Source: Phyto melanocephala (lineage: Eukaryota > Arthropoda > Insecta > Diptera > Rhinophoridae). Taken from it: 64,000 bases of DNA. The DNA is taken from assembly GCA_941918925.1 (NCBI GenBank), contig OW799234.1:45600412-45664411 (forward strand), read 5' to 3'. Of this stretch, positions 6,845 to 57,060 are shown piece after piece. Positions within the stretch are counted from its first letter, which is position 1, and the number at the start of each line of letters is the position of its first letter. Position numbers and translations under genes: made by a program. The notes beneath the pieces were generated by a model. It was not told where the DNA came from. It saw nothing but the letters and a program-made list of their open reading frames with translations, and did not search any database.

Positions 6845-9423
6845 ATGGAAATTGACAATCCAGTTGTTAAAAAAGAAACAATGGAAAGTAATATAGACGA
6901 CTCGGTCAAAATTGGTGGGCTTAACAATATTAAAGAGGTAACAAAATAAAATCTGAAGTCAATATACTTAAAAAAATTGGAAAATTATGTGTATTAAATG
7001 TCAAAATTACGGAAAACAAATCAATAGTTGAAAGAAAGGATAAAATGTAGTGTTTAAAATATACTTAACATTTTTGCTTACTAAAAGTCAGATCAAAATG
7101 CATTCAGGTTTCGCAAGCAATCATTTCAATTTATTTTATGCCAAAGAGCACATATTAAAAAATTTATATTTATGTATATACCTAGCAAAAAAAAATTGGA
7201 AGTAGTGCAAAGCGAATTACATTTACAGGACTTCTAAATCAATTGTGTAAAAGCATTAATTCTAAATGACTTCTAAACTGCAAAATAAATTGTCATAAAT
7301 GATGTGCTTAAAAATTAATGCAACATCATGCAAAATATCTTAAAGAATTCATGTAAACAAACAAATTTAACACATGAAATATCCGATAATTGTCACCAAA
7401 TATGCGTGAGTTCCATGCACTTATTAGAATGGAGTGCAGTTCATTAAAATATTCATGTAAACATATGATCTCCAATGACACGCTAATGTTAAAGTCATTA
7501 GTGTTTTCACCTAAATTTGATCACTTCGTCACCAGTTGAACCCCTGCAAAATCACTTTTTTCTCATAGATTTTTTTGCTGGGTATATTCAGAAATCTACT
7601 TAGAAGTCTCCGAATGAAACCACATTGCTCATATACATATGTATGTTTAGAAATGTAGTGAAAATACATATATCGATTGTCACAGGTAGAGGCCCTAACA
7701 AATACTCCTTGATACAAAAATCTACCGCAATAGTATCAAAAATAATTGTTTTACAAGCAATTTTACAATATAAATTGTATTTTAGTACTGTTTCTATTAC
7801 GTTTTTACATTACACTGTTTATACCTGTGACTATTGATATATATAAATGAAAACTTTGGTAGTCTATAACTCGAAAACTAAGCGTTTCCTCGAAAGAGAT
7901 CTGCTCTAAACACATGTCGTCAGCGGCTTGCCAAAAAATCATCGGTGATGGCTTAAATTCGCCTTAAACTCGAGTTAAGTTTTGAAAAATTAGCAATAAT
8001 AACTATTTCAGCTAAATCCAGTAAGAGTGCTATATTCAACCGTGCCGAATCTGACGATATCTTTTATAGTATGCTAGATAGTTGGCCTAGATTTTGAAGA
8101 ATACAAAGCCATAATGACTGTATTTGAACCATATACCCGCAATTTTTTTTAGGATGCAATCTTTGATTTATCTTTTTCATAGTTTACTATAGTCCTATGA
8201 GTTCCCTGGATTAGTTTACGAAATTAACAGTTTTAGTCATTTTTCAAATGTGTGCTGTGAATAATAACAAATTTAAAATTTACTTATTCTAATCTCAAAT
8301 GGTATTTAACATGTTCTGAATTTGTCTAAGAGATCATCTATAAACCTATTAGCATTAAATTAGCCAATAGCAGAGTCCATTACCGAAATTTTAAAATTAA
8401 AAAAAAACTTTAAAATTTGTGTTGTAAAAAAACATTAAAATAATAAAATACAAACTCTTTCTTTGAATATTGCAGAAGCCTAAAACGCATAAACGTAAAA
8501 AACTACGACGATTAGTGCGTACTAGCGACTTAGAAAAATGCAAAAATAATTCATCCAGTAAATATAAAATTATGTTAATTATCACATTTTTAATAACACT
8601 CACTGCTGCGCTTCTTATGGGCTATAATCTTACACGAAATAATTTTAACACACAACAAATGCTCAAGGAATTTCTAAGAACCTATCGTAATCAATACTTT
8701 GAAATACTGCATGGTAACAGTAATTACTGTGATCAAAAACAGCAGCTTGACACTGTATCGTTATTTGTACGTATAAAACAAAGCCAAATTCTGAATCAAG
8801 ACCAGGCAATGCAACAGATTGAGTTGACCCTTAGAAATGAGAGCGGTCTGAACGCTATTGCACTGGTGGGGCCAACAGGTGTAGGGAAATCTCTATTTAT
8901 GAGATCCTTACAACAAAACTTCCCCTGGCAAGAGAACGTGCATTCGTACGCTTGGAATACATATGTTAAAGATGAAGCTAAAAAAATCCAATTAATTAGA
9001 ATTATCATTGAAAATCTCTCCGACTGTGGGCAAAATCTGTTGGTCATAGAAAATTTGCAAGCCTGTGATCTTGGTGCTGTCGCTATAATCAATAGGTTGT
9101 TAATTGAAGCGAATAAAAACCAACATAGGCGTGTTATATTATTTTATGTATTTAATTTAAATACAATGTTAACTCTTGAAGCATATGAGACTCAAAATAA
9201 TTTATTACAATCTTTAGATAACTGTACTGTGATAAATTTTAAATCTTTCAAACAGTCAGAATTAAGAGACTGTATACAACGTGAAGCGGAATTGGAGAAT
9301 GTGACATTAACCGAAACAAATTATGACGAAATTGTTAAAACAATTGATCCATTCATATCGGGATGTAAAAATGTTAATGCCAAAGTCTTAATGTATGGCA
9401 CAATTAAAGCTAAAATTATATAA
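6845..9423 (+). CDS. Torsin-4A-like membrane-anchored AAA+ protein, two exons
   Basis: Exon 1 is 6845-6937 (MEIDNPVVKK... to KE) with donor gag|gtaaca; exon 2 is 8476-9423 with acceptor ttgcag|aag. Both junctions are phase 0, giving 346 residues. The start has the fly-like context aacaATGg. A lysine/arginine-rich cytoplasmic segment (residues 32-50) precedes one membrane helix at about 63-83. An AAA+ domain follows with Walker A GPTGVGKS (163-170) and a C-terminal GCK (327-329), the torsin sensor-2 hallmark. Torsins are ATPases of the ER and nuclear-envelope lumen. The layout (basic N-terminus, helix, GPxGVGKS) resembles torsin-4A more than torsin-1. The Walker B position reads LLVIEN (219-224) where active relatives have an acidic pair, so hydrolysis may be impaired. 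An N-glycosylation site NES lies at 152. Family call is firm; subtype is inferred. Confidence 0.85.
7181..7582 (+). mobile_element. Possible MITE in the torsin intron
   Basis: Left end cctagcaaaaaaa and right end ttttttgctggg are near inverted repeats (CCNAGCAAAAAA). TATA lies outside each end and could be a 4-bp target duplication, though this is weak in AT-rich DNA. The interior has no coding capacity. Confidence 0.4.
8017..8056 (+). repeat. 5'-end fragment of the hairpin-ended repeat
   Basis: Reads 'agtaagagtgctatattc' followed by 'aaccgtgccgaatct', matching the first 36 bases of the copies at 57946 and 60066. The hairpin is damaged (attcaacc in place of attcggcc) and the rest of the element is absent. 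Located in the torsin intron. Confidence 0.65.
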
Positions 9424-12764: not shown

Positions 12765-13409
12765 GGGGCCGAATTACGGCATTCGAACGTGATCGAAATT
12801 GTAAAATTCTTATTATACCCTGTTCAGACAGATATTTTTAATTGTTTCAATTAACTGTTGATTGAGCAATTAAAATAAGTGTTCACACATACTCAATTTA
12901 TCTTACTCAATTAGCATTTGATAGCTGAAAAATACGAAGTATTTATACCAAATCAAATAATGCCTTCTTTTCAGTGTTTTTCCTGTTGATAAAATATATT
13001 TACAATTATATTTACATATGTATATACTTATATGTATGTATTTAAATTTATTTAAAAATTTTTTTTAAAATTTCATCAAACATTTTCCATTTTATTAATT
13101 TTTATTTTTTGTATATTTATTTGTTTGACATTAGAAATGCCACCTATAGAATTTTCTTCTCACTGAACATACTTCTCAAGAGTTGTATTTCGAGTTTTAG
13201 TGAAACAATTAAGTATATATTGCTCAATTTAAAAATAATTTTTAGTATGGCATATTGAGCTCAATATGGCCTTTAATTGCGAAAATATTATAAATTGACA
13301 ATTAAGGCGCCTGTGTGAACATAGTATTAGAATCTCTATACCTAAAGCACAGCGAACTCGATCGTTCGAGTAAAATTTCGATCGTGATCGAATGCCGTAA
13401 TTCGGCCCC
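12765..13409. mobile_element. MITE with GGGGCCGAATTACGGCATTC termini
   Basis: The 20-bp left end (ggggccgaattacggcattc) recurs inverted at the right end (gaatgccgtaattcggcccc), and similarity continues inward with gatcg motifs. Interior about 600 bp, non-coding, rich in tcaatta motifs. A 125-bp relative lies at 14265-14389. The target duplication cannot be fixed: tgat/atca occurs near both sides but out of register. Confidence 0.85.
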
Positions 13410-14264
13410 AGATCAAGTTTTTTATTAGAAGTTTGTGATTGACTTTAACAAAAGCTTTACTAAAGTCGGTGTAAATTGCATCAGTTTGCTTCTGTTCAAC
13501 AAAACCACGATTTACTAGCATAGTAAAGTGCAGCAGATTAGTTACAGTTGAACAACCCTTTTGAAAACCATGTTGTAAAGGAGACAAGATAGCTGACACT
13601 TGATGACAAAGATGGTCTGTTATGATTTTCTCAAACATTTTGGGTATGATACTAAGTTTAGCAATACCTCTATATTTAGCAATGTTATTTATGCAGCCAG
13701 ATTTATATAATGGAATAATGAAAGAATCTTTCCATGAAAGAAATGAAATGTTGAAAATTAAAGTAAGAGGGGCAGCGAAAGCCTCAGCACAATTAATAAT
13801 TCCATCCATTCCATTCCATCAGGTCCGTATTTATAAGAAAATTTAAGCTTTTTTAAACTGGTTAGAACTGTTGATTCATCATGAAATGGAATTGATATAG
13901 CTGGATTTAAGCATTCTGTTAGCGGATAATTATTTGATTCATCAAAATTCGCATGGGAATAAGTGGTAGAAAAGAAATCAGCGAACATATTGCTTATTGT
14001 TAAGTCATCAACGGATTCAAGATTTTGGTACTTCATAACTGATGGAAATGCAATTGTATTTCCTTTGGAATTTACAAACTTATAGATATGTATGTACATA
14101 TGTATACTTTTTTTTGTGATTGAAATTAATTTACACACATGTAATATGACTTAAGACTGAATTTTAATTGTTACTTATCTTTGTTTTTTTGGTTTTATTT
14201 CTCTACAAAAAAATTTTAAAAAAATTTTGTTTTTTTAACTATCAGTGCATTTTTAAATTGTCCT

Positions 14265-32324: not shown

Positions 32325-32834
32325 CACTGCTCTGCAAAAAATAATTTTTTGTCTTCCCATTTAATAAAACTATGTGGACTATATGGATTTTGACGCGCTG
32401 AACTCAAATCCGTTGTCGGTTTTTTCCATCAGATCGGGATTTTTTTTATGGGCGTGGCAAATTTTTCCCCCTAAATTAGTCAGGTACGGAGACTTATTTT
32501 CTCCTAACTCGAGAACCAGTCATCCAATTTTCAAAAATAAAACACCGAAAAATGTGTAATGAAATTGTATTTATTTTAGTGGAATAAAATTTTTCTCTAT
32601 CTCTTATCGCTTTGGAGTTATTTAGAAATTAATGGAGAAAAAAATTTTTTTCTTGCAAAATTCGTAATATTTTTCAATTTAAAAATGGAATTAAGAAAAA
32701 TATAAGGCAAATATTCAACATTTTAATTTTTTCTGAGAGATACTTGTCTTAGAAATAAAAAAAAGCCATAAACCATAAAAATCGGTTAAAAAATGTGTAT
32801 TTTATTGTTAATTTACCGCAGGTACACAATATTG
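32325..32834. repeat. Left terminal inverted repeat of copy A
   Basis: Matches the inverse of 34794-35275. Shared landmarks are 'cgcgctgaactcaaatccgt', 'cgggattttttttatgggcg', 'aattcgtaatatttttcaat' and 'aatttaccgcaggtac'. Confidence 0.9.
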
Positions 32835-33148
32835 ACCAAATATGTGTAATGCAGCAAACAAGGTCAGAGTGGGCGCACTAAAGCGCCTTGTAGTATAAAT
32901 AAATGGCAACTTTTAACTTCTATCTATTTTCGTACAACAAAAACAAATACAAGCAAACAAATTTTCCAAATTGTAATTTTGTAGCAACTCCTCGCATAAA
33001 GCACCCACCCTGTCGTCACCCGTAGATAACTTCAGATTACAATAAAAAATCAAAATATTTACAGGGTATTTTACTTAAAATAACACAAAAATGTTGTTAA
33101 TAATTATTAATTTTTATTTAGGAAACATTGTTAAAATAAAAAAGTAGC

Positions 33149-34465
33149 TTAAGCTGCCCATGCCCTTTTGTCCACATCATTCAATTTCGTCCTGAAGACC
33201 TCGTCCTTCATAAGCTGTCGTATTTGTGGACCTACAAATATGACTTCTTTTACTTTAGCACCTCTGATTCTAGGAAATTTGCTCTTAATGTATAGAAAGG
33301 CTTCACCATCCTTGTTTATTGCTTTGACAAAATTTTTCATTAGGCCTAGCTTTATATGAAGAGAAGAGTTTGTTCCTTTTGTGTTAAAGGCTCTTCTGCT
33401 ACAATTTACTCCTGGAATACAATTTACTCTTTTTGGTCAAATTTTAACATTGTAGTGTTTTTCTTTTGCGCGGCTATCCCATTTACATAAGAAGCAATAA
33501 AACTTAGAATATCCACTTTGCAATCCATTTAACATTGCTACGACTTTCAAATCTACACATACGTTCAATGAGTAATGTGAATATTTAATTTTTTGTAGTA
33601 TCATCTTCATGCTACAATAGTTTTCTTTCATATTTCTTGCATACGCGAGTGGGACCAATGGAAATTTGTTGCCATTGTGAAGTAAAACGGCTTTCAAAAT
33701 TGTCTTGGATGAATCAATAAAAAGCCGCCAATCCACAGATTTATGACTGAAACACAGTTGTCGCAAAAGTCCATCAGCATTATCACAAAATACCAAATAA
33801 CTGAAATACCAAATACTGAAATAACTCAAAAAAGGTTGTTCTTTATTTCGAAAGTAAGAGACGTTAACGTCCGTTTGCACCAAACTCCATTCTTTTCATT
33901 GGGATGCAAGAAGCTCAGACTTGGTTTTTTTAAAGCCTTGATTTACAAACTAAGTTATTCATATCAGTTTAATTCGGAAAATACGAAGAAACACCCATGC
34001 TGGCGTAAGTGGATTCAGTTGCTGCAGAAAGCCCATCTTCTTCATCGTCTGTAGGAGGCAATGGAGGTAAAAATTTACTTGTAAACTGGAAAACTGGTCG
34101 TTTGACGTATGAAGTATTTGGATATGTAACTTTATTTTTGGTTTTTTTGGTAAGCCCACGTGCTTTAGTATGGCAAAAGTATCAATCATTTTGATGATTT
34201 TGTGGTTCACTCCAAATCGCTGGCTTCATAAACGGCTTCATAAAGACTTATGACTTCCATTTAACCAACCTCTTAAAGACTTACTACAGCTACTACAACA
34301 TATTTTCGGCAGCCAATTTTTATCTCTATCATCGATAGGAAACCCAAAATAACGGCAATAAGCATCTTTAACCGTGGAAGATATTGTCTCCCGTTGAGAA
34401 CTTAAAGTTAGATCGCCACATACGTAACAAAATAAATTTGGAGATTTATTACAAATCCTTGACAT
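33149..34465 (-). pseudogene. Transposase-like protein of copy A, frameshifted and truncated
   Basis: The start at 34465 gives MSRICNKSPNLFCYVCGDLT, a CxxC finger, then a second Cys pair (WLPKICCSSCSKSL). After a deletion and frame changes a short segment reads SYPNTSYVKRPVFQFTSKFL. From 33883 the core reads DVNVSYFRNKEQPFLSYFS, VDWRLFIDSSKTILKAVLLH, VDLKVVAMLNGLQSGYSKFY and CFLCKWDSR. After another frameshift it reads LHIKLGLMKNFVKAINKDGE and FPRIRGAKVKE, with a stop at 33149 after RAWAA. The C-terminal SDEHGERFH block of the family is missing. Shared DWRLFIDSSK, DLKVVA, CxxCxWxxR and LHIKLG show homology to the protein at 53832-55526. The element could move only with a functional relative's enzyme. 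Confidence 0.85.
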
Positions 34466-34793
34466 TTTGTAATATGAAAGCGTTTGTGGATTCTTTAATT
34501 GCTTTATTTCTTTACACAATAACAAAGTACACTATAAGATCTATTTACTGTTGCCGATTTTAAGCGCACGATATTCAAACTAAAAGTGACTTACATATTG
34601 CCCATTAGCTTCTATATCTACAATAAATACCAAAATCTACCCTAATTTTCTTAATTTGAAATCACAGGTAATAAAAAAATACTGTTACAAATATTAATTC
34701 CAAGAACTATGTAAAATACCCTTGTACTTTAGTTCCATTACCTGCTCACCTAACGAAATGTTACATATATCATATGTACGGCTGGTTGCATTA

Positions 34794-35275
34794 CAATATT
34801 GGGTACCTGCGGTAAATTGACAATAAAATCCACATTTCTTAACCGATTTTTATAGTTATTAAGTAGCTCTCAGAAAAAAGTTTAAGATGTTGAATATTTG
34901 CCTTATATTTTTTTTAATTCCATTTTTAAATTGAAAAATATTACGAATTTTGCAAGAAAAAAATTTTTTTCTCCATTAATTTCTAAATAACTCCAAAACG
35001 ATAAGAGATAGAGACAAATTGTATTCCACTGAAATAAATACAATTTTGTTACACATTTTCTGGTGTTTTATTTTGGAAAATCGGATGACTGGTTCTCAAG
35101 TTAGGATTAAATATGTGTCCGTACCTGACTAATTTAGGGGGAAAAATTTGCCACGCCCATAAAAAAAAATCCCGATCTGATGGAAAAAAACCGACAACGG
35201 ATTTGAGTTCAGCGCGTCAAAATCCATATAGTCCACATCATTTTATTAAATGGAGGATTTTGCTGCAGAGCAGTG
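34794..35275. repeat. Right terminal inverted repeat of copy A
   Basis: Inverse of 32325-32834. The inner boundary is at caatattgggtacctgcggt; the outer end is ctgcagagcagtg. Confidence 0.9.
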
Positions 35276-52920: not shown

Positions 52921-53013
52921 GGTGATTCACCGTGAGGTTTTATTTTTTATGTAAAATTAAACACATAAATTTCAAAGTGAACTTAAAATTTTTATTATTG
53001 AAACATATAATAA

Positions 53014-53709
53014 CACTGTGCATGAAATTGACACTTTTTTTTCGTGACAAGCTGGGCACCTAGCGTTTTAACATAATTCGGGTACGCTAAATCCAGTGGT
53101 GCCCTCGGTTTTTTAAGATTGGCTCTGGTTTTCGAGATATACCGTTATTTCGAAAATGGAGGAGGTTGCACCACATATGTTCGCGTAACTCAAAAACGCT
53201 TTAGCCTATTCCAAAAACTTAAAAAATCGAAATTCCGCAATAAAATTTCCTTTAAGAAAAGTAAAATTTCTTTCTAATATTTGTAGTCGTTTTAGAAAAA
53301 TAATTTTTTTTTTGAAAAAAAAATTAATTTTTTTATCAAAATTTCGAAATTTTTGTTCTTTAAAAATTCATAAAAAATTAACAAATGCAGCTAGGCTTCT
53401 AATTTTTTGCAAACATATAAAAAACAAAGCTGCTAACAAAACAAGCCATAAATGATTAAAATCTGTTAGCAACTTTTGATTTTATTCACAAAAGTCGACA
53501 AATTTTAATTAATTTAAGAATTTCATAAAACGCAATATTTGTATGGGAGCCCCCCTAAGGGATTGTGATAAAGGGAAAGTATAATTTAAGAAAATGTTAA
53601 GAACAAAAAACAATGAAGGTCGGTCATACATTTTATCCCCCTAGGAGTGAATCCTAGGCCTTAGAAACAAATGATGGGAATGAAAAATAAAGTTGCGCAG
53701 GTGCAAAAT
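53014..53709. repeat. Left terminal inverted repeat of copy B
   Basis: Matches the inverse of 55641-56367 almost throughout; landmarks 'ggtacgctaaatccagtggt', 'tatgggagcccccctaaggg' and 'gagtgaatcctaggccttag'. Confidence 0.93.
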
Positions 53710-53831
53710 AAGCTATTTGTGATTAAAGTCTGTCTACAACTTTTGATTTTTTCAGAAAAGATGAAATTTTTGAATTTTTTATATAACCAAACTAAAAATT
53801 GTTTGTTGTTAAGTAGTTTTTATTTAGAAAT

Positions 53832-55526
53832 TTATTCTTCTTCCTCCTGCAGATTCCAACAAATATCCCCTAATAGCGAATCAAGTTGTTTGCCGCTATA
53901 CCAGTGTTCGAGCCTGGCTGTTACTTGGTGAAATCTCTCGCCATGTTCATCAGACTCGGCTGGTGATTGTTCATTAAATTTTTCGGCATGGCAATGCAAA
54001 AAATGTATTTTCAATGACATTCGAACGTTTAAGTTTTTAAATGCGGTTAGCATATTTTTGATTAAAATTCGCCAGTTTTTAGACCGATGATTTCCTAATA
54101 CATTTTCTATTACTGATTTCACACAATTCCAGGCCAATAGCTCGATATCATTCAATGCAACCTCAAATTGATGGTCCTTCATAAGACGGCGAATGTCCGG
54201 TCCATTAAGAATTCCTGTAAAATAGAAACATTATGAAATGAAATATAAATCTAATTTAATAAAGTAGTTAGAGTTCATACCTTCTTTTACTTTCATGCCG
54301 CTTAATCGTGGAAAAATTCGGTGCAATTCGGTAAAAGCAACACCATCTGGGCTCAATGCTTTTATAAAATTTTTTACAATACCCAGTTTGATGTGGAGTG
54401 GAGGAAGCAAAATCTTTTCCATGGGCACAAGTGGTAATTCAGTAACATTGTTTCTATGAAATCTGCTTTCCTCACGTAAAGCCCAATCCCGTGTATTGTA
54501 CTGGTCGCCATCGAAACGCGTATTCCATAAGCACATGAAGCACATATTTTTAGTATAGTCCAATTGCATGCCTCTTAAAAGAGCTACCACTTTTAAATCT
54601 GCGCATATTTTTCACTTGTGGTCTTTATATTTAATTAAATGCATTATTTTTTTCATTGATGCGTATGTCTCTTTAGTATTTGTGCTAAGTGCTATCGGAA
54701 TAGGGCTTTTTAAATTAGTGACATGTAGCAAAACTGCTTTTAAGCTACTTTTGGAAGAATCAATAAATAAGCGCCAATCTCCAGGATTATATTCATTTTG
54801 CATTGTTGAAACCAATCCGCGGATGTCAGTACAATACGCAATAGAATTATTCTCAATAGATTTAAAAAAAGTCGTAAATCGTCTATGGCGATTGATAGCC
54901 CCGTATGTTTGTACACCTGGTGCTAAAATATTAGCTCGTTTTAACTCTTTTGCCAAGAGAATGCTCTGTCTTTGAGATAATTTTAGACGCCGTACCATTA
55001 TATCCAGACGATCTTGCGTGATTTCATTGTGACTGCATGGAACCGTGATGCATGACGGTTGATACATTGAAGTAGCTGGTCTATCCGCTTCAACAGAATG
55101 AATTATTGAGGGAATATGTTCTGTTGGTATATGGCTACCCGGAAGAGTAATTTCATCAGAATGTGGCAGCGGAAATCGAGCATATGCTGTTTCAGTATAA
55201 GAAATATAAGTCATTTTTCTTCTGTTTATACCCGCTGTATAATTTATGCACGCATAACACTCATCTTCAACATGAACTATGGGATCTCTCCAAATCATTG
55301 GAACACCAAATGGCATGGTATCTCCATTTTTTCCCCGCTTATTTAAATGGTAAATGCAGTGTGTACACACTATTGATGGTGTCCAACTCTTACCATATAT
55401 AACACTTAAAGAAAAATATAATTCATACAAGGTACTTGTTTCAGTAGTGATTTTACGGCGACTTGGTATATTTTTATATTTCCCACACACATAACAAAAG
55501 TAATTAAACTTTTTACACGGCCCCAT
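53832..55526 (-). pseudogene. DDE-like transposase of copy B, two exons, one nonsense codon
   Basis: Exon 1 55526-54281, intron 54280-54215 (66 bp, gtatga...ttacag), exon 2 54214-53832; joined length 542 codons. Start chosen at MGPCKKFNYFCYVCG; an upstream ATG at 55559 is in frame. Cys pairs lie at 11/14, 54/57 and 90/93, with MPFGVPMIW at 71-79 and CYAC at 90-93: an N-terminal zinc-binding region. Core blocks are GDWRLFIDSSKSSLKAVLLH (Asp 256), ICADLKVVALLRGMQ (Asp 310), CFMCLWNTR (Cys 329/332), LHIKLGIVKNFIKALSPDG and, across the splice, KVKEGILNGPDIRRLMKD, then SDEHGERFHQ (503-512). D, D with CxxC behind it, then E/H suggests an RNase-H-type DDE transposase, by analogy. The only visible lesion is TGA at 54614-54612 (residue 305). 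Proteins with these blocks are, to my memory, widespread and uncharacterised in arthropods and cnidarians. Confidence 0.85.
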
Positions 55527-55640
55527 CTTAGATATTTCAATATAACTGTTTAGATACAAGACTGCCAGAGGCTTTAAAATTCACTAATCACTTTCGCAAG
55601 CACTTTTCATATGACAGTACGCGTAGAACCCTAGCCTTAA

Positions 55641-56367
55641 ATTTTGCACCTGCAGCGCCTGAGATACCCCTAAACGGGCCAAATGTATGACCAGCGCAAC
55701 TTTATTTTTCATTCCCAACATTTGTTTCTAAGGCCTAGGATTCACTCCTAGGGGGATAAAATGTATGACCGACCTTCATTGTTTTTTGTTCTTAACATTT
55801 TCTTAAATTATACTTTCCCTTTATCACCATCCCTTAGGGGGGCTCCCATACAAATATTGCGTTTTATGAAATTCTTAAATTAATTAAAATTTGTCGACTT
55901 TTGTGAATAAAATCAAAAGTTGCTAACAGATTTTAATCATTTATGGCTTGTTTTGTTAGCAGCTTTGTTTTTTATATGTTTGCAAAAAATTAGAAGCCTA
56001 GCTGCATTTTTTAATTTTTTATGAATTTTTAATGAACAAAAATTTCGAAATTTTGATAAAAAAATTAATTTTTTTTCAAAAAAAAAATTATTTTTCTAAA
56101 ACGACTACGGATATTAGAAAGAAGTTTTACTTTTCTTAAAGCAAATTTTATTGCGGAATTTCGGTTTTTTAAGTTTTTGGAATAAGCTAAAGCGTTTTTG
56201 AGTTACGCGATTATATGTGGTGCAACCTCCTCCATTTTCGATATAACGGTATATCTCGAAAACCAGAGCCAATCTTAAAAAACCGAGGGCACCACTGGAT
56301 TTAGCGTACCCGAATTATGTTAAAACGCTAGGTGCCCGGCTTGTCTGTTTTTTCAACTAGCACAGTG
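55641..56367. repeat. Right terminal inverted repeat of copy B
   Basis: Inverse of 53014-53709, plus about 46 bases (around agatacccctaaacgggcca) not present on the left. Likely contains the promoter of the minus-strand gene. Confidence 0.93.
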
Positions 56368-57060
56368 TAATTAATGGCATTTACTACTTGAAAATTTTAA
56401 CAAGTAAATGTTGGTTGGCCACGACAACGTCTGAGGTGGTCTATTCAAAAGTTCCAAATTTGGACAACTCGTTCGCCACACGTTGGCTTCCAAAGCGTTA
56501 ATCATTGCTGGCTTATTCCTTAAGACTTCTGACTTTACATATCCCCAGAGAAGATAGTATAAAGGTGTGATATCGCAGTATTTAAGTAGGTGGTCAATTT
56601 ACTTACTTAAGTGTTCAGAAAAATGATTTCTCAACAAGCCCGTTGTTTCACGTGCTGTATGACTCGTAACACTGTATTATTGAGATCAGAGCTCACCGAA
56701 ACCATGCACTTGAATTTCCGTTAACATTGTGTGATAACTGTAACCATTTCAGTAACATTCTGATTTACCTCGTTTTTGAAGAAATATAGACCAATGATAA
56801 CACCCGCCCATAAACCATACCACATCGTTGTTTTTAATGGATATAATATGGTCGCTCTTAGTAATCATCGAATTGATAATCAGGCAATCTTGAGCCCGAG
56901 ATGTGCTTTATCACTGAACAAAAATTCACATTAAAACACCGGCGAAAAAATTTTCACACAACTCATTGGAGACGCTGTTGTCGTCTGAGTCTTTCCATGA
57001 AGACTTGCTAAACGATACTAAGCAAAAATGTCATAGCAGATTGATATAAGTCATGTATGA

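Follow-up and report, generated by a model that had tools for sequence, protein, structure and literature searches.

In a 64,000-nucleotide stretch of the genome of the fly Phyto melanocephala (GCA_941918925.1, contig OW799234.1, forward-strand positions 45,600,412 to 45,664,411; hereafter the window), we identified an element at positions 53014-56367 that is, with a probability of about 0.92, a cut-and-paste transposon of the Chapaev3 group within the CMC superfamily. It would belong to a young and numerous family with a RAG1/Transib-like transposase; a TGA codon interrupts the gene of this copy, and the copy appears to have been moved in trans. The two ends of the element are lopsided, and a similar difference between ends recurs in each of six Chapaev3-type families that we surveyed in this single genome (740 Mb in 9 contigs).

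The window contains 89 CACTG..CAGTG pairs spaced 80-6000 bp apart, four of which have an identical 3-bp flank. Matching TWA flanks preceded by A and followed by T are found in only two of the 89 (53014-56367 and 32325-35275), and since both of these hold the same type of gene, the element is more than a chance pairing of tips. Inspection of flanks and tips bore out the coordinates, CACTG ends and TAA duplication proposed in an earlier note that was made from the sequence alone. The terminal inverted repeats of about 0.7 kb described there are present as inverted arms (97.6% identity over 657 alignment columns), but they do not form one unbroken repeat from the tip inward: the outermost 8 bp are the same at both ends (CACTGTGC) and are followed by dissimilar spacers of 24 and 14 bases. 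The second window element has the same lopsided end layout in unrelated sequence.

Table 1. Positions of the two Chapaev3-type elements in the window and of the parts of the younger one.
Feature	Position	Strand	Description
Element	53014-56367		3,354 bp; starts CACTGTGC, finishes GCACAGTG
Left target site duplication	53011..53013		TAA, A before
Right target site duplication	56368..56370		TAA, T after
Long end	53014..53045	+	terminal CACTGTGC and 24-bp spacer; inner homology from offset 32
Short end	56346..56367	-	terminal CACTGTGC and 14-bp spacer; inner homology from offset 22
Left long inverted arm	53046..53702	+	97.6% identical to right arm
Right long inverted arm	55690..56345	-	
Likely transposase, exon 1	54281..55526	- (55526->54281)	Cys-rich N-terminal part, D256, D310, C329, C332, H378; in-frame TGA, codon 305
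Intron	54215..54280	- (54280->54215)	GT-AG, 66 bp
Likely transposase, exon 2	53832..54214	- (54214->53832)	H486, H491 (H(4)H); E505, E508
Older Chapaev3-type element, other family	32325..35275	-	tips CACTGCTCTGCA, target site duplication TTA, offsets 32/22, decayed transposase matches 34465->33152

The gene within the element is likely its transposase. The single two-exon minus-strand gene with one TGA that the note had described was confirmed; the TGA is codon 305 of 542, and no second gene was recognised among open reading frames of at least 60 amino acids in the element. A protein search returned 1,563 clusters at E <= 0.001, and among the 120 clusters listed few carry a name and none a precomputed Pfam domain, in agreement with the note's statement that proteins of this type are common and unnamed. 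Searches of the window protein itself gave no significant Pfam family (one non-significant match) and nothing significant in the PDB by sequence. We chose 81 full-length homologues from the 120 listed and found the equivalents of D256, C329/C332 (the C(2)C motif), H378 (LH), H486/H491 (H(4)H) and E505/E508 invariant in all 81, and that of D310 in 80. At the N-terminus, where a RAG1-like Chapa zinc domain is a mark of Chapaev3, a profile match to the RAG1 N-terminus is only weak (E 0.83), and zf-AD matches with E up to 1 occur in 19 of the 81 homologues, even the best of them (0.00084) falling short of Pfam's cut-off.

The fold was examined in a predicted structure of one homologue, P0006, in which the strand order and the positions of D257, D311 and E508/E511 fit an RNase-H/DDE layout and the core superposes on those of RAG1 and Transib (HzTransib) over about 360 residues. 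An RNase-H core, whose absence from a predicted fold the note had named as evidence against its transposase reading, is thus present in the homologue model. The model supports an RNase-H/DDE layout for the core of the window protein as well, with D256, D310 and E505/E508 in the places predicted in the note; the protein is predicted to catalyse transposition.

With no more than one mismatch allowed, the outermost 21 bp of the long end match the genome at 555 places, compared with none for the same bases read backward. We fetched 30 loci by transposase similarity (L009-L038), of which 27 have both ends (L024, L028 and L038 were excluded because they do not), giving 28 copies together with that of the window. 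All 28 have 5'-CAC..GTG-3' termini. The comparison of genomic copies that the note had proposed as a check supports its TWA duplication: identical TWA triplets lie on both sides in 24 of 28 copies, with A before in 27 and T after in 27. With regard to the other observation that the note had named as refuting it, homologues at fixed orthologous loci lacking inverted repeats, the family copies within this one genome carry the ends and sit in different flanks. In the 22 other copies with the usual gene orientation, identity to the family majority is 98.7-99.6%; five copies with a flipped interior (L010, L012, L021, L032 and L033) score 65.5-68.4% but are not comparable by that measure. Interiors flipped relative to the ends, which also occur in L054 and L055 of another family (F_d, below), are a sign of recombination between the long inverted arms. 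An uninterrupted 542-residue spliced frame is present in 17 of the 28 copies and interrupted in nine, and two could not be assessed by the splice motifs used.

In order to find an empty site, we joined the flanks of 40 insertions and obtained matches across the junction for L015, L021, L035 and L037. Those of L015, L035 and L037 are matches to repeats at 63-81%, and base-by-base inspection was confined to L021. This insertion lies within a copy of a second family, that of the older window element (32325-35275), and its flanks, when joined at a single duplication, align without a gap at the junction to uninterrupted second-family copies (L040 and L057), which represent the empty site. The nesting indicates that the copy of the window's family is the younger of the two at this site.

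The window copy is itself a damaged one, its gene being stopped by the TGA. The same TGA is found at five other sites (L002, L003, L004, L005 and L007), which were fetched as the closest by their arms to the window's and are therefore a non-random sample. The stop-bearing copies are 99.3-99.95% identical over 2,150 bp while their flanks agree at only 16-25 of 60 bases. Codon 305 is covered in 42 of 48 loci, with the stop in seven (including the window's own locus and L060, a repeat of L005) and without it in 35. The window copy and these five were most likely moved by transposase made by intact copies elsewhere, an enzyme that would cut at the CAC ends and insert into A|TWA|T sites, duplicating the 3 bp. 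A different account, in which readthrough or recoding of the TGA lets stop-bearing copies produce their own transposase, would fit the presence of six nearly identical stop-bearing copies at different sites. We consider it improbable: 17 complete open-frame copies exist in the same genome and make supply in trans the simpler account, although recoding signals were not searched for.

The assignment to Chapaev3 is based on published hallmarks of the group. Chapaev3 elements are reported to end in CAC/GTG, to duplicate TWA at sites with A on the 5' side and T on the 3' side, and to encode proteins with the motifs C(2)C, LH and H(4)H (PMC4079192); every one of these marks that could be tested, together with a predicted DDE core, is found in the window family. 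Garfield and Merrow (PMC4079192) are like it in these marks and in a two-exon transposase of about 550 residues (556 for Garfield), but the family's copies are longer, at 3,354-3,872 bp in the 28 copies, whereas Garfield_BM measures 2,289 bp and lamprey Merrow about 2,450 bp. Strict motif patterns, applied to one copy per family, were all found in two of the other Chapaev3-type families (F_d and F_g); in the remaining three, where decayed copies were read from partial matches, the patterns missed were LH and E for the second family, C(2)C and E for F_c, and all but the second D and E for F_e. The note's placement of the element in CMC was thus in the right neighbourhood. Its idea that this type of protein had no known mobile context is not supported, as the features match a published transposon group (PMC4079192, PMC4411706). 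Chapaev transposons are described in a 2014 paper as largely uncharacterized in their biology (PMC4079192).

Several observations weigh against this assignment. It is drawn from hallmarks and not from a tree with Merrow, Garfield and Conan, and the intron lies near codon 415 (about 415+127 residues) versus 78+478 and 78+484 in Garfield and Merrow (PMC4079192). The modelled homologue is only 54% identical to the window protein, and plain Foldseek places the P element transposase at the top (E 6e-4), none of the 50 matches listed being a RAG chain. A matching TWA pair is absent in four of the 28 copies, and identity to the family majority is just 93.8% for the window copy, below the range of the other copies with the usual gene orientation. 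As a side observation, matches in this genome (G000) to another Chapaev3-type protein, P0101, cover residues 76-551 and so begin close to the Garfield/Merrow intron position; at least 30 of them are without an in-frame stop, for example C4:32335886-32337307 (F_d).

CACTA/EnSpm elements resemble the window element in their CACTR tips and 3-bp duplication, and are not known to have a fixed TWA target. That the element is CACTA/EnSpm proper is very unlikely: the CMC(T) clade as a whole shares CACTG/CACTA tips, a 3-bp duplication and motifs of the C(2)C and H(3-4)H type (PMC12730594), which would suit that classification, but TWA duplicated between A and T is a reported Chapaev3 trait (PMC4079192). 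Moreover, no EnSpm-type Pfam model matches the window protein, and none is among the best 25 of the 41 weakly matching families. PIF/Harbinger elements have a second gene with a Myb-like domain. Of the features of the window family only the 3-bp TWA duplication points to them; its CAC..GTG ends, the lack of a recognised second gene, and a core of RAG/Transib type that contains Cys and His pairs are at odds with such an origin, and no Harbinger family is matched in Pfam or present among the best 25 of 41, although no dedicated search was made. We assign it a negligible probability. Nor is the link to PIF/Harbinger that the note had drawn from TWA needed, because Chapaev3 is itself reported to duplicate TWA flanked by A and T (PMC4079192). 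Using tblastn, we found no relatives among 124 pattern stretches in viral contigs, where a bracovirus Garfield copy was sought, or among 56 pattern stretches in prokaryote genome contigs, and a literature search for four protein motifs as text found no occurrence.

We located the other families in the genome with other Chapaev3-type proteins as queries and compared the offsets at which inner homology begins at the two ends. In the window's family the offsets are 32/22 in 20 of 28 copies, 31/22 in seven and 24/22 in one; arm alignment alone gives 31-32/22 in 25, the values for L031, L032 and L036 falling elsewhere due to gaps. The second family has 32/22 in all six copies, and F_d (CACTAGG tips) has 29/19 in the four of five copies with both ends found. 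One locus, L046, showed a single end, and the fragment L069 yielded no ends. In F_e (CACAGG/CACAGC tips) the block TTTGCTT lies at 17/27: L052 has it at either end, and L044 has it, together with the whole of its continuation, in the undeleted left end; arm alignment of L052 gives 24/47 since one arm is deleted further in, and comparing L050 with L051, both of which have other gaps, would not yield 10. In F_c, which has CACTAGTATACAA tips and no long arms, a shared 10-mer lies at 13/24 in two of three copies (L056 among them; L048 lacks it at one end). Among 2,000 shuffles an equally long match arose 21 times, but never with an offset difference of 10-11; generic alignment shows no such difference (77/43, 41/54 and 43/78, with low scores), so that F_c is represented by the 10-mer alone. 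The last family found, F_g, was examined as a test and has a 4-mer at 12/22 and an arm at 18/29 in a single old copy whose left tip is mutated and whose TAA/TTA flanks disagree. The offset difference is therefore 10 or 11 bp, about one helical turn, in six of six families, F_e, F_c and F_g being represented by few copies. Between families, transposases are 37-46% identical pairwise (one copy each, partial matches), and end sequences past the CAC tips are unrelated by eye.

Facing end pairs of the window's family join a long with a short end in all 36 pairs found, 27 of which are from L009-L038 and nine from a one-in-ten sample of the listed long ends, at least 100 in number; four of 40 loci have no pair. 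Two sampled elements of 1.0 and 1.2 kb retain both end types. At position 2768 of L062 a second short end starts 32 bp past the right end of the sampled element, its partner lying outside the fetched stretch. A fixed link of the long end with the 3' side of the gene was considered and dropped, as the arrangement is reversed in F_e, F_g, five of the 28 copies of the window's family, and two F_d copies; any rule would therefore apply to how the ends are paired, irrespective of the gene.

Transib (HzTransib) and RAG1 are like the window family in the predicted core, in the CAC tip, and in Cys and His pairs within the core, and the two RAG signals differ by 11 bp, comparable with the 10-11 bp found here. 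Transib and RAG are unlike it in their 5-bp duplication, whereas a 3-bp TWA is seen here in the copies and at the empty site; RAG further has a RAG2 gene, and none is present in the window element. Unlike Transib/RAG ends, the inner blocks of the six families have no visible sequence in common. Most Transibs are reported as symmetric, unlike the families here, while amphioxus ProtoRAG shares asymmetric bipartite ends with them but has 27/31-bp spacers, a 5-bp duplication and a RAG2-like partner (PMC8289069). Asymmetric ends are also noted for oyster and amphioxus RAG-like elements in a 2021 hypothesis article, according to which some Transib families are the only case known, apart from V(D)J recombination, where transposition shows 12/23 asymmetry (PMC8355894). 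A literature search found no mention of lopsided Chapaev3 ends, but did not reach the Repbase Reports that describe Chapaev3.

RAG pairs a signal with a 12-bp spacer with one that has a 23-bp spacer. By analogy, Chapaev3 transposases might join each short end to a partner that has its inner recognition block 10-11 bp deeper, which we regard as an even bet. Somewhat less probable, but to be taken seriously, is that the lopsided ends are an inherited accident, in which an ancestral 10-bp spacer insertion persisted and gene conversion kept the arms alike, with no role for the spacing. The six families come from one genome and possibly from one asymmetric ancestor; arms that are 97.6% alike and genes flipped in five of 28 copies show that exchange between arms occurs; and long-plus-short pairing in 36 of 36 is also what plain descent would give. 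Inheritance alone is harder to reconcile with a difference that stays at 10-11 bp among such diverged transposases and seemingly unrelated ends, since insertions and deletions should have altered it in the absence of selection and conversion should have reached the tips in some copies, yet every pair found is long plus short. With a single asymmetric ancestor, the constancy would require that such changes had been kept away, either by selection or by the shortness of the time elapsed.

Elsewhere in the window, a 318-amino-acid open frame at 8467-9423 (+) has weak AAA/NB-ARC-type ATPase matches and is presumably torsin-like, and a reverse transcriptase fragment lies at 13345-13818 (-) (RVT_1, E 1.7e-8). 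A 75-amino-acid frame at 56374-56598 (-) adjoins the element; it has no Pfam match at E 0.01, and we take it to resemble the C-terminus of a mariner transposase. Neither an Rfam match at gathering score nor a tRNA was found in the window.

As a Chapaev3 family, that of the window element is young, numerous and rich in open frames, but the geometry of its ends matters more than the element itself. If the transposases do follow a one-turn rule, asymmetric end pairing would either predate RAG and RAG2 or have had a second origin, in a distant relative whose core is RAG1-like. With their 10-11-bp difference and a transposase predicted to resemble RAG1, the six Chapaev3 families would provide a system for testing asymmetric pairing without RAG2.
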